Part shown: positions 9,170 to 13,738 of the stretch, piece by piece
How positions within the stretch are numbered: position 1 is the first letter of the stretch
Layout of the letters: every line of letters starts with the position of its first letter
Origin: Verrucomicrobiia bacterium
GTDB lineage: Bacteria > Verrucomicrobiota > Verrucomicrobiia > Verrucomicrobiales > Akkermansiaceae
DNA: 64,000 nucleotides
Assembly (NCBI GenBank): GCA_030432565.1
Contig: JAUIGV010000014.1
Span: 62,001-126,000 of the forward strand
Direction: 5' to 3'
Notes under the pieces: model-generated
Databases searched by the model: none
The model's input: only the letters and a program-made list of their open reading frames with translations
Told to the model about the DNA's origin: nothing
Program-made: the position numbers and the translations under genes

Positions 9170-12100
9170 ATGATCGCAAAACCTCCACTTTCCTCCCTCT
9201 GCTATACCGTCACCGCGCTAGTCCTATTCATCTTCGGAGAACAAATCGCCAGCGCTGACACTCTCACTGATGCCGTCATCAGTGAATTCCTCGCAGATAA
9301 CGACGACGGCATTGTTGACGAAGACAACGACCGCGAAGATTGGATCGAAATCTGGAACACCTCGGGGGTCGCCGGAGACCTCGGCGGCTGGTATTTGACC
9401 GACGATCCAACCAATCTCACCAAATGGCAACTGCCAGCCATTGAAATGACGAGCGGCGGGTATTTGGTGGTTTTTGCTTCGGGCAAAGACCGGGCGAACA
9501 CGGCAAGCGAGCTACACACGAACTTCCGCCTGCAGAGCGAGGCCGGCGGGTATCTTGCCTTGGTGAAGCCAGATGGCACCACGATCGCGAGCGAATTCGA
9601 TGACTACCCCGAACAAGCCAAAGACATCGCCTACGGAGTCGGCATCGACGGCGAAACTCCCGTTACTTTTTTCTCCGCCGGAGCCCCGGCAAAATGGCTC
9701 GTCCCCACCGGACCGGTAACCGACTGGACGACCACTGGCTTCGACGACACGGCCTGGAACAGCGGAGCAACCGGAATCGGCTTTGATTCACCCGGAGGGC
9801 GTTATGAACCCCTGATTGGCGACGGTGGCGATTCCGGCGCGGAGATGCGCTCCCAAAATGCCACAGTCTACATCCGTATTCCCTTCGAGGTCGAAGACCC
9901 GACCGGGATCAGTAACATCAATCTACGCCTGAAATGGGAGGACGGATTCGTGGCCCACTTGAATGGCACGGAGTTTCACAAGGAGTCCGCCCCCACAACT
10001 CCGGTATGGAACTCCGGGTCCACCGATGGCGGTCGCAATGAGGACAACGCCACTACCTTCTTCAATTATCCTGTCGAGCAAGGCGGCCTGGTGACGGGAA
10101 CCAACATTCTGGCGATCCAGGGGCTCAACAGCAGCGCCGGGAGTTCGGACCTCATCATGGTGCCCGAGCTGACCGGCATCTTCAAAGATACCAACAATCT
10201 GACGTCAGGATTTTTCGCCACTCCAACTCCGGGAGCCGTCAACGGCATCCGCTATGAAGGGCTCGTCGCAGACACCCGCTTCAGCGTTGACCGCGGCGTC
10301 TATGACACCGAATTTGATCTCGAAATCTCAACGGAGACAGCAGGTGCCAGCATTCGCTTCACCACCGACGGCACTCCACCAAGCGAAACCTCCGGCCAAC
10401 TTTACACGGGTCCGATTTCAATCACCGGTACGACTGTTGTCCGCGCTCTTGCCTACAAGCCCGGCTTCCAGTCGACAAACATTGACACCCATAGCTACAT
10501 CTTCCCGGGTGACGTCTACGGCGACCAATTCTCGGAGGCCTTGACCGCCGTGCCCACCATCTCGCTGGTCACCCAGGCCAATTACGACCTGCGCCTCATG
10601 TCAGTGGCCTCGACGAACGAACTTCCCTCTCAGAGTGTTGAGCGGCCGGAACGTTCCCAGGTGATCGTGGCCCTGGTCAGTGGCGAACTCCATGTGCGAA
10701 TTATCGATGTCCACATCCGCAGAAGCCAGGAATCGAATCGATTTGAATACCGGACCGTAATCGATAAATCCGAGGACCAGCTGGTGGACGGACAGGAAAA
10801 GACCGACCTGCAAAACCTGCTAAACCAAGCGCCGTTCCCGGACACCGCTGCGATGTCTCCGGAAACCCAACGGGAAATCATTGATAAAGCGAGCTCCATC
10901 TCTGAATACACCCCCCGCACCCCCTTTCTCCAGGACAGCAATAACGACTATATCGAGCACAAGAGTTCGATCGAGATGATCTACCCGGACGGAACCCCCG
11001 GGTTCCAGGAAGACGCCGGACTGACCAACTTCGGCGGAGGCTTCACCAACTTCACCAAGAAGAGTTTTCGACTCTACTTCCGAAAAGAATACGGCGCGGC
11101 CAAGCTCAAACACCCGATCTTTGACGGATTCGAATATAAAAATTTCCCGCCGGTTGACGAGTTTGACGCCATCAACCTACGCAGCGGCTCACATGACATG
11201 ACGAATCGCGGCGCCTACATGGGTCCACGCTTTGCCGACGACTCGATGCTCGATATGGGCCAAATTGCGCCACACGGACGTTTCGTCCATGTCTATCTGA
11301 ACGGGCGATACTGGGGACAATACCATCTGCGTGAACGCTGGAATGCCGACATGGCATCCAGTTACTTCGGTGGCAAAAAAGAGGACTACGATGCCATCAG
11401 CGCCAACAACTCCGGCATGGAATTCCAGAACGGAACTCCATACGATGGCAACGCGGAGTTCTGGAACGAGACGCGAAACCTGTTGAATGGACCGGACCCG
11501 TTTGTCAATGCGGCCGCACACATCGATATCGCAAACGTCATCGATTTCATGTTGCTCTGGACCAGTGGAGAGTGTGAGAGCGAGTTCCGTGCCTTTGGCT
11601 CACGATCCCAAGGCGTGCCATTCAAATTCATGATGAGGGATCCCGATGGCTTCATGCCCAACGGAGGCTGGAGTCACGTCCACGCCGTCACCCACAATGG
11701 ACCGCTCAGGGCGATGACTGAACTGCGCACCGGCGGCAACCCCGACTATAACATGCTGCTGGCAGATCGAATTCACAAACACTTCTTCAACGACGGTGCC
11801 CTTACCGCCGAAGCGAGCGTTGAGCGATTGCGCAAACGCTACGAGGAGATGCGCTCCGGTTTCGCAGCCGAAGCCCGAAGGTGGAATTATCAAACCGTTG
11901 CTTCATGGGAATCCTATGTCAATCGTTGGCTTAACACCGGCCTGCCACAGCGGACAACCAGCATGATCCAAAGGCTCCGGCAAGCCGGCATGTATCCGGA
12001 CATTCTCGCTCCCGCGCTCTCCCAGTTCGGGGGCTCAATCCCCGCTGAAGGTGGCATCACCATGGCCACCAACACCACGGCCATTTACTACACCATCGAT

Positions 12101-13738
12101 GGTTCCGATCCCCGTCTCCCCGGGGGGGGCATCAGCCCCACGGCCATCAATGCGAGATTCTCCAACGATGTTCGCGAGCCTGAAGACTTTGTCGCCTCCG
12201 GTGACGTCTGGAAATATCTCGACGATGGAAGCGACCAGGGAACAGCCTGGAGAGACTCCGCCTACGATGACAGCACCTGGGCAAGCGGTCCTTCACAATT
12301 TGCCTATGGAGAAACGATTGATATTCAAACGACCGTCGGCTTCATCGACACCGACCCTGACACCGGTGGCACTCAAAAGAATGCCACCACGTATTTTCGC
12401 AAGAAGGTCATGATTGAAGACCCTGCGGATTTTTCAAACTTCGTTATCGGCCTCCGCTACGACGATGGGGCGGTCGTTTATGTCAATGGCGTGGAAGTCG
12501 CCCGCACCAACCTTCCCGCAAATCCCAGCTTTGACACCTTCGCGACAAGCAGCACTCCCGACGAAAACACTTTCTTCGACTACCAGGTTTCTTCATCTCG
12601 ATTTTTCGACGGTGAGAACACCATCGCCGTGGAAATCCACAATGCGTCGGCTGGAAGTTCCGACATGCGATTCGACCTCACATTACGAGGTGAAATTGAT
12701 CTCACTAATGGCAATAATATCACCGAGCCCATTATGTTCAACGGGCCGACCGAATTCAAAGCAAGGAGCTTCGATAGCAACTCAAACGAATGGAGCCCAC
12801 TGACCTCGACTTTCTTTAGTCTCGATACCGTGCCCGCTGCTGCGACCAATCTTGTTATTTCGGAAATTCACTACCGGCCCGCCAATCCCACCTCGGCGGA
12901 AGAGCTCGCAATCTCTTCCGACCGGGATGACTTTGAGTTCATCGAGCTTCTCAACATCTCCACTCAACCCATCGACCTCAGCGGAGTCTACTTTGACGAA
13001 GGCATTAGCTTCTTCTTTGCAGACAACACTATTCTGGAAGCAGGCGCACGGGTTGTTCTTGTCAAAGATCTCGAAGCCTTCACCGCCCGTTACGGCGATC
13101 TTTCCGAAGGTTTTATCGCCGGTGAATTTGGCGGCAGACTCAGCAATGATGGCGAACAGCTGATCGTTCGCAAGACAGGCTCAATCGAACTCATCAACCT
13201 CACTTACAACGACCAACCCCCCTGGCCGATCCAGGCGGACGGAGATGGCTATTCCATGATCTTCACCGGCAATGTCCAGGCCCAGGGCTCTTCATGGTCC
13301 GCGCACGCCTCCATCGGCGGAGCACCAGGCATGGCCGACACCGCTCTCACCACCGGTTATGACGACTGGAAAATTGCCAACGGGATCACTGATGACATGA
13401 GCGACTCCGACAACGATGGCCTCACTGCCTTCGCCGAGTATGCCACCGGCAACAGCCCTAATATTGCCAATGCCGCCTCCGTCATCACCCAAGGTCTCGT
13501 CACGATCGAACCGGATGGTTTCCTTTCGATCACGTATCAACAGGGGCTCAATGTCACCGACGTTCTCTTTGAAATTCAGGAATCTTCCGATCTCGAAAAT
13601 TGGGCAACCATTCCCGCACCGATTCTGGTGGGAGAAGAGATTGATCCGGTCACCCGGACGAAGAAGGTCACGCGACGCCTTTCCAATCCGGTCACGCAAG
13701 ACACCAAGAAATTCCTGCGCGTCCGCATGGTGCGCTAG
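9170..13738 (+). CDS. Very large exported lamin-tail / CotH protein with duplicated jelly-roll domains
   Basis: The protein has 1,522 residues with a signal peptide in the first 29. Domain order: lamin-tail (about 35-150, VISEFLADND, DWIEIWNTSG); jelly-roll domain with the TTGFDDTAWNSGATGIGFD pattern (about 165-350); chitobiase-type Fn3-like segment (about 365-445, IRFTTDGTPPSETSGQLYTG); a foreign-looking segment (about 477-597, described separately); CotH domain (about 598-930); a second chitobiase-like segment (IYYTIDGSDPRLPGGG); a second jelly-roll (about 1,005-1,190); a second lamin-tail (about 1,220-1,370); and a C-terminal DSDNDGLTAFAEYATG segment. The CotH site region reads FKFMMRDPDGFM rather than the PWDLDLTFG seen in the other CotH protein of this window, so catalytic competence is doubtful. 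Confidence 0.86.
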   Translation: MIAKPPLSSLCYTVTALVLFIFGEQIASADTLTDAVISEFLADNDDGIVDEDNDREDWIEIWNTSGVAGDLGGWYLTDDPTNLTKWQLPAIEMTSGGYLVVFASGKDRANTASELHTNFRLQSEAGGYLALVKPDGTTIASEFDDYPEQAKDIAYGVGIDGETPVTFFSAGAPAKWLVPTGPVTDWTTTGFDDTAWNSGATGIGFDSPGGRYEPLIGDGGDSGAEMRSQNATVYIRIPFEVEDPTGISNINLRLKWEDGFVAHLNGTEFHKESAPTTPVWNSGSTDGGRNEDNATTFFNYPVEQGGLVTGTNILAIQGLNSSAGSSDLIMVPELTGIFKDTNNLTSGFFATPTPGAVNGIRYEGLVADTRFSVDRGVYDTEFDLEISTETAGASIRFTTDGTPPSETSGQLYTGPISITGTTVVRALAYKPGFQSTNIDTHSYIFPGDVYGDQFSEALTAVPTISLVTQANYDLRLMSVASTNELPSQSVERPERSQVIVALVSGELHVRIIDVHIRRSQESNRFEYRTVIDKSEDQLVDGQEKTDLQNLLNQAPFPDTAAMSPETQREIIDKASSISEYTPRTPFLQDSNNDYIEHKSSIEMIYPDGTPGFQEDAGLTNFGGGFTNFTKKSFRLYFRKEYGAAKLKHPIFDGFEYKNFPPVDEFDAINLRSGSHDMTNRGAYMGPRFADDSMLDMGQIAPHGRFVHVYLNGRYWGQYHLRERWNADMASSYFGGKKEDYDAISANNSGMEFQNGTPYDGNAEFWNETRNLLNGPDPFVNAAAHIDIANVIDFMLLWTSGECESEFRAFGSRSQGVPFKFMMRDPDGFMPNGGWSHVHAVTHNGPLRAMTELRTGGNPDYNMLLADRIHKHFFNDGALTAEASVERLRKRYEEMRSGFAAEARRWNYQTVASWESYVNRWLNTGLPQRTTSMIQRLRQAGMYPDILAPALSQFGGSIPAEGGITMATNTTAIYYTIDGSDPRLPGGGISPTAINARFSNDVREPEDFVASGDVWKYLDDGSDQGTAWRDSAYDDSTWASGPSQFAYGETIDIQTTVGFIDTDPDTGGTQKNATTYFRKKVMIEDPADFSNFVIGLRYDDGAVVYVNGVEVARTNLPANPSFDTFATSSTPDENTFFDYQVSSSRFFDGENTIAVEIHNASAGSSDMRFDLTLRGEIDLTNGNNITEPIMFNGPTEFKARSFDSNSNEWSPLTSTFFSLDTVPAAATNLVISEIHYRPANPTSAEELAISSDRDDFEFIELLNISTQPIDLSGVYFDEGISFFFADNTILEAGARVVLVKDLEAFTARYGDLSEGFIAGEFGGRLSNDGEQLIVRKTGSIELINLTYNDQPPWPIQADGDGYSMIFTGNVQAQGSSWSAHASIGGAPGMADTALTTGYDDWKIANGITDDMSDSDNDGLTAFAEYATGNSPNIANAASVITQGLVTIEPDGFLSITYQQGLNVTDVLFEIQESSDLENWATIPAPILVGEEIDPVTRTKKVTRRLSNPVTQDTKKFLRVRMVR
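10598..10960 (+). other. In-frame foreign-looking segment inside the CotH gene
   Basis: About 121 codons (residues 477-597) separate TISLVTQANYD from SSIEMIYPDGTPGFQ, two parts that normally lie within roughly 30 residues of each other in lamin-tail/CotH proteins. The segment opens with ATG (MSVASTNELPSQ). It contains ELHVRIIDVHI, TVIDKSEDQLVDGQEKTDL, NQAPFPDTAAMSPETQ, REIIDKASSIS and YTPRTP. As I recall, short translated units with the same cadence (LHVRIFD, VVDKSE, LNPFPD, ATSIAGHT) occur in unrelated proteins and as orphan ORFs in planctomycete, verrucomicrobial and cyanobacterial genomes. That is memory, not a search result. The host frame is kept on both sides. Exact ends and any target duplication could not be fixed by eye. 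Confidence 0.5.

Follow-up and report, generated by a model that had tools for sequence, protein, structure and literature searches.

The question raised by this locus is whether a CotH/lamin-tail gene carries, within its own reading frame, a segment of foreign descent and, if so, how that segment came to lie there. The gene occupies positions 9170 to 13738 (+ strand, as for the other features of the window given below) of the window, the stretch of 64,000 nucleotides from a Verrucomicrobiia genome (G000) that was analysed as a whole, and forms an ORF of 1522 aa with the Pfam domains LTD, CHB_HEX_C_1, Fn3_assoc and CotH. An earlier note had placed an in-frame foreign segment at 10598 to 10960; a segment is indeed found there, with the corrections that this start falls 15 nt inside the insert and that the last 36 nt are host CotH sequence. 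Alignment of the flanks with segment-free CotH homologues, the check which that note had suggested, gave a clean absence in two orthologues of the same genus, L102 of G377 and L103 of G373, whose CotH domains are 86% and 85% identical to that of the window gene. Both read 'ISLVTENT[A/N]FLNENA' where the window gene reads 'ISLVTQAN-YDLRLMS...SEYTPRTP-FLQDSNN', and 114 codons (10583 to 10924, YDLRLMS...SEYTPRTP) are therefore extra in the window gene, a net gain of 113 aa. The element thus sits between '...ISLVTQAN' and 'FLQDSNNDYIEHKSSIEMIYPDG...', its left host junction being TQAN (10571 to 10582; TENT[A/N] in the empty orthologues) and its right junction the host sequence FLQDSNNDYIEH (10925 to 10960; FLNENAANDYGEY in the empty orthologue L103). 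The order of strings read earlier within the segment (ELHVRIIDV, then PFPD, IIDKASSIS and YTPRTP) is as described.

The segment was absent from 33 of the 36 CotH loci compared, the three occupied ones being the window gene and its same-genus orthologue in G335, which had been fetched twice. Across the 27 genomes of the window's genus, eight CotH genes carry it (G000, G335, G378, G363, G367, G369, G362 and G368), the copy in G362 (L047) being real but partial, with its left part read as N; altogether it is present in eight CotH orthologues besides the window gene. In a tree of the CotH domain (n = 38), from which G368 was left out as too short and in which G568, a match among the relatives of G556, is one of the occupied genes, the eight occupied genes and the empty genes of G377 and G373 fall into one clade (100/99). 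The branching order within this clade is unresolved, and a single gain or loss suffices to account for the pattern; the CotH copy has been passed down vertically. In the window's genome itself, CotH-like matches with an E-value of 1e-20 or lower number at least 11, whereas the segment matches one place only and no further copy was found.

Beyond CotH, the earlier suggestion of a translated unit recurring in unrelated proteins was borne out. The analysed set comprises 37 complete copies, distributed over 22 sites and 19 genomes, all of them Verrucomicrobiota wherever a name or kinship is known, with two partial copies (L152 at a contig edge and L047 of G362) set aside. The window segment alone, used as the query, found nothing outside its own genome in 194 phylum genomes (its own included), viral contigs and phages, gave just two matches at E 4 against plasmids, and a consensus partly derived from the window added nothing new. 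The search of the genus revealed a relative in G377, whose host frame is open for at least 3049 codons and is read as a putative NHL-repeat protein, and that copy as the query led to a second relative in G266, inside an AAA ATPase (a match in G697 is the same contig and place as that in G266, and was counted once). A scan of the collection gave six loci, among them three more unrelated hosts, all in records labelled Verrucomicrobia or similar. Profile searches yielded 22 matches in 11 chosen genomes, with two of the matches dropped as weak. Among 387 phylum genomes three matched, counting that of the window, and among 189 relatives of G556, a set that contains G556, ten did; G559 alone holds 11 copies, one of which is truncated where its contig stops. 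With the window's own copy excluded, the E-values of the accepted copies in single-genome profile searches were 1e-37 to 1.5e-5, 8e-32 to 3e-7, and 4e-8, which excludes chance. Real copies as queries against viral, plasmid and phage sequences found nothing. The planctomycetes and cyanobacteria that had also been named as carriers furnished no copy, the searches outside Verrucomicrobiota being limited to narrow pattern scans and the plasmid, phage and viral sequences. Several candidates were rejected as chance matches, namely L003 (E 0.014 and 0.029), one on contig C20 of G376 (E 0.0027), L092 (E 0.91), L095 (E 0.007) and ten more rows of the genus search (E 0.1 to 0.83).

The hosts are diverse. 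An all-against-all BLASTP comparison of host flanks, which left out six CotH copies and so covered 31 of the 37, returned only same-site orthologues and one paralogous host pair (L087/L138 with L144); with one such pair linked among the 22 sites, the hosts form 21 groups. Those named by Pfam are CotH/LTD, ZnuA, PSD1 (DUF1553), GtrA, AAA, GDSL lipase, SSF symporter, BspA-type LRR, NosD beta-helix and Big_7, and the others may, on a reading of their sequences, be NHL, ELWxxDGT repeat, CehA/McbA-like, PPDK-like, WD40-like and TIGR03790-like proteins. In GtrA homologues the insertion lies in a variable stretch ahead of the 'NN.IAF' segment, and two of the 16 loci that a motif search picked out of the 26 given are occupied, the remaining 14 being empty. 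The possibility that the segment is a normal CotH part or a lineage-specific loop expansion, in keeping with its single place within CotH and its inheritance there, is refuted by the homologous copies at 21 further sites and can be dismissed almost entirely; the refuting condition that the earlier note had set beforehand, an occurrence only in CotH at one place, fails on the same ground.

Two observations on particular hosts may be recorded. The copy L128/L155 (G099, C1:3927442-3927678) lies in a 14,967-codon open frame of a single-contig genome of 6.0 Mb; the product carries Big_7 Ig-like domains and is a putative adhesin of giant size. The hosts of L073, L087/L138 and L144 seemingly have a zinc-ribbon and transmembrane layout in common, with the insert comparably placed; they may be distant homologues, so that either a single insertion of great age or a favoured site would lie behind the pattern, and among them BLASTP links only L087/L138 with L144.

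The unit generally spans about 92 codons, as against 114 in the window CotH gene, where the part alignable with copies in unrelated proteins (LRLMSVAS...SEY) runs from 10589 to 10909. The stretch HIRRSQESNRFEYR at 10712 to 10753 contains an extension, about 11 residues net, that is common to the CotH copies and does not occur in the copies of other genes; measured between end anchors, with G577 left out, the unit is 312 to 324 nt long in CotH and 261 to 288 nt elsewhere. All 37 copies are in sense orientation, in frame and free of stops; the copy search reads through stops, yet the accepted copies sit in stop-free open frames. The left end follows [YFH]-x-[LVI]-x-[LVIFM], with M first in both PPDK-like copies, and the right end often lies near [GDE]-[YHF], several copies differing there; on the whole the ends are nearly constant. 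An ATG start, previously listed among the features of the segment, is not conserved, since of 36 copies only 13 have M at that position, where the others have V, I, L, T, E, Q or R. The best-conserved core reads roughly 'ALVG..LHVRIFD..G..VIDK.E.EL....L..LK..L...PFPD...LS.E....II..A..I.GY'.

AlphaFold, run with 36 copies, predicts a compact beta-beta-beta-beta-alpha-alpha domain (pLDDT 93.6, pTM 0.84). A model of the CotH region gave the same six secondary-structure elements, with a pLDDT mostly of 73 to 94 within the block and of about 60 near the CotH-specific extension, but its host portion was of low quality (mean pLDDT 61). Foldseek with the element model returned no convincing relative (best E 0.2), and VIA-align gave weak matches with Z at most 4.1, among them MavC/MvcA, including its insertion domain, and SH2 domains such as that of SPT6; no family assignment is claimed from fold comparison on the strength of these weak matches. 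Searches of Pfam, NCBIfam, PHROGs, PADLOC and PDB sequences produced no consistent match, only scattered hits to one or two members, the best PHROG match to the copies being at E 5e-4. In the versions of Pfam, NCBIfam and PHROGs searched there is no model for the segment, and annotators would take it for part of its carrier protein. Searches of open-licence PMC literature gave no paper that, judged from its title and the opening of its abstract, describes this family.

The precise in-frame placement in structured enzymes, together with the existence of empty orthologues, would also be expected of an intein- or intron-like element that removes itself and is gone from the mature host. Such an element is very unlikely here. 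The unit is only some 92 aa long, neither the window protein nor the 36 copies matched any intein or Hint model in Pfam or NCBIfam, and the boundary residues do not follow the usual rule for intein ends; an intron is opposed by the constraint at the amino-acid level, no Rfam search having been made.

At the level of DNA, neither conserved ends nor direct repeats, which the earlier note had proposed to look for, were detected; conservation is seen in the protein. The mean longest string common to the two flanks was 4.19, against 4.14 for permuted pairs (44% of 2000 permutations as high), so target-site duplication above chance was not detected in the 21 of 22 sites covered, the copies being too old for a firm result. 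A CATTCG/CACTCG repeat flanking the copy in G377 is suggestive and does not generalise. The ends of six copies had no terminal repeats in common, which old copies could have lost, and the same number of copies gave no convincing palindrome, their inverted repeats being short, imperfect and not common between copies. The folding of DNA was ordinary in seven of eight half-elements from four copies (z -0.42 to 0.46); the eighth, the right half of L085 (1640-1779), folds better than its shuffles (z -3.12). The GC content of the element equals that of its host (mean difference -0.01), and no transposase or endonuclease was identified.

An in-frame insertion without splicing motifs is the same outward picture as that of a homing element whose endonuclease is hidden in another frame, as with the ShiLan domain (PMC11855218). 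Here, the five other frames are mostly closed, being open in 0, 2, 8, 8 and 0 of 33 copies, where synonymous shuffles would give 0.4, 0.7, 8.0, 10.2 and 0.1. These 33 of the 37 copies revealed no frame that might hide an endonuclease, none of the alternative frames being open in more than eight, and this explanation is scarcely tenable. Frames +2 and -2 contain fewer stops than the shuffles (122 vs 152 and 132 vs 158, z about -3.9), but they stay closed in all but 2 and 0 of the 33 copies, respectively; the deficit is probably a matter of dinucleotide bias.

The closest pair of copies from different sites is 53% identical in amino acids and 67% in nucleotides (a pair at 71% consists of same-site orthologues, and is not counted as different-site), and because different-site copies are never alike enough to be recent, the spread is taken to be old. 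Copies within one genome are no more alike (median 27%, 66 pairs) than those between genomes (30%, 565 pairs), and in an element tree with one copy per site the copies do not clearly group by lineage (a value as low came from 68 of 500 shuffles; that of 2 of 500 obtained with same-site pairs kept is explained by near-copies). Without greater likeness within genomes or clear clustering by lineage, there is no sign of a recent burst. The protein searches yielded no acceptable intergenic or broken copy, which is weak evidence of their absence as decayed copies would escape such searches. The spread is thus real but old, with its machinery unidentified, and present-day mobility is not shown.

Orthologous copies were also compared for selection. 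Element dN/dS lay between 0.06 and 0.50 in 14 of 15 same-site pairs, those that could be computed, most of them having reached saturation in dS. The two pairs short of saturation gave 0.13 and 0.09, similar to the 0.10-0.15 and 0.05-0.12 of their flanks. By pN/pS, the element was looser than both flanks in eight of the 15 pairs, between them or level in six, and tighter in one. The loosest element was that of L135 and L136 (G565 and G665, the same site), with a dN/dS of 0.50 against 0.28 and 0.25 in the flanks. From these ratios it follows that the segment, once inserted, has been under constraint at the protein level: the element in orthologous copies is clearly under purifying selection, often somewhat weaker than that on the host.

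Such selection would also fit a domain useful to the host, and here the main rival to the mobile-element account has to be given fair weight, namely promiscuous domain shuffling, whereby a useful small domain for binding or regulation, with a common function as yet unknown, was placed repeatedly by illegitimate recombination and kept for what it does. Purifying selection, the well-defined predicted fold, and the age of all copies, those at the same site having been inherited together, are in its favour. The hosts, however, have no obvious commonality, ranging from an AAA ATPase, a membrane GtrA protein and a symporter to ZnuA, CotH, LRR, beta-helix and Ig-like proteins, and each of the 37 copies lies inside a longer protein, between boundaries that hardly vary, none being a stand-alone protein, for which reasons domain shuffling is considered rather unlikely.

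The preferred reading is that of a mobile, in-frame, independently folding protein-coding insertion element, and it is held to be probable rather than established. Its occurrence in frame inside some 20 unrelated Verrucomicrobia genes means that the segment behaves like a mobile element within proteins that does not break them. By the mechanism proposed, machinery supplied in trans would have copied the coding DNA, as one discrete unit, into new genes, both the copying and the trans activity being inferred. Insertions that entered a loop in the correct frame and orientation would have survived, a general placement likewise inferred. Survival in loops would be possible because a unit that folds into a domain of its own allows the host chain to go on beyond it, a tolerance that is inferred and not observed. 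The segment would be translated and presumably kept in the mature protein without being spliced out; afterwards, vertical inheritance would follow, with purifying selection keeping the element folded. Whether it represents a gene-embedded 'domain transposon', a new class of mobile element with the protein fold as its survival device, which hops in frame into unrelated genes, stays in the mature proteins as a harmless folded insert and does without splicing, a palindrome or an enzyme of its own, is a tentative proposition, possible but with the balance leaning somewhat against it.

Should the preferred reading hold, in-frame spread among unrelated genes of bacteria, followed by retention under selection, is open to a whole folded domain and not just to short palindromic peptides, which would offer a direct and testable natural route for the origin of internal domain insertions. 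If the 'domain transposon' proposition were true, bacterial proteins would be supplied with ready-made insertion domains. The machinery, if found, might serve as a tool for in-frame domain insertion.

Among known systems, the palindromic elements of Rickettsia, to which the earlier note had likened the segment, are about 150 bp long with 44 insertions in R. conorii (PMC10969869). These elements and their Wolbachia equivalents (PMC10969869, PMC2996958) resemble the present one in being in-frame coding insertions across unrelated genes and tolerated by the host. The analogy holds for this behaviour, in-frame insertion into unrelated genes being met by the 37 stop-free copies at 22 sites in 21 groups, and fails for palindrome and length: in contrast to the palindromes of about 150 bp described there, this element measures about 260-340 bp, has an ordinary DNA fold in seven of eight half-elements, and codes for what is predicted to be a globular domain, on which purifying selection acts. 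The ShiLan domain, an insertion in a phage methylase, is alike in lying in frame without signs of an intein or intron and in that it may loop out of its host, but it hides an HNH endonuclease in another frame (PMC11855218), whereas the other frames here are mostly closed and the hosts are many unrelated cellular genes. The palindromic amphipathic repeat coding sequences (PARCELs) are likewise a mobile coding module found in many ORFs with a patchy distribution; they are amphipathic, with dyad symmetry and often in tandem tracts in membrane proteins (PMC2996958), unlike the one larger domain per host site of all 37 copies here. The enterobacterial RU elements with ORFs are similarly small mobile sequences in genes with the frame kept, and are described as MITE-like and present in multiple intergenic regions (PMC2759123); no intergenic copy of the present element was found. 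With the palindrome and length features of the rickettsial elements and the hidden frame of ShiLan both failing, the element is filed as a separate variant of in-frame coding mobile elements and is not assigned to any of these systems.
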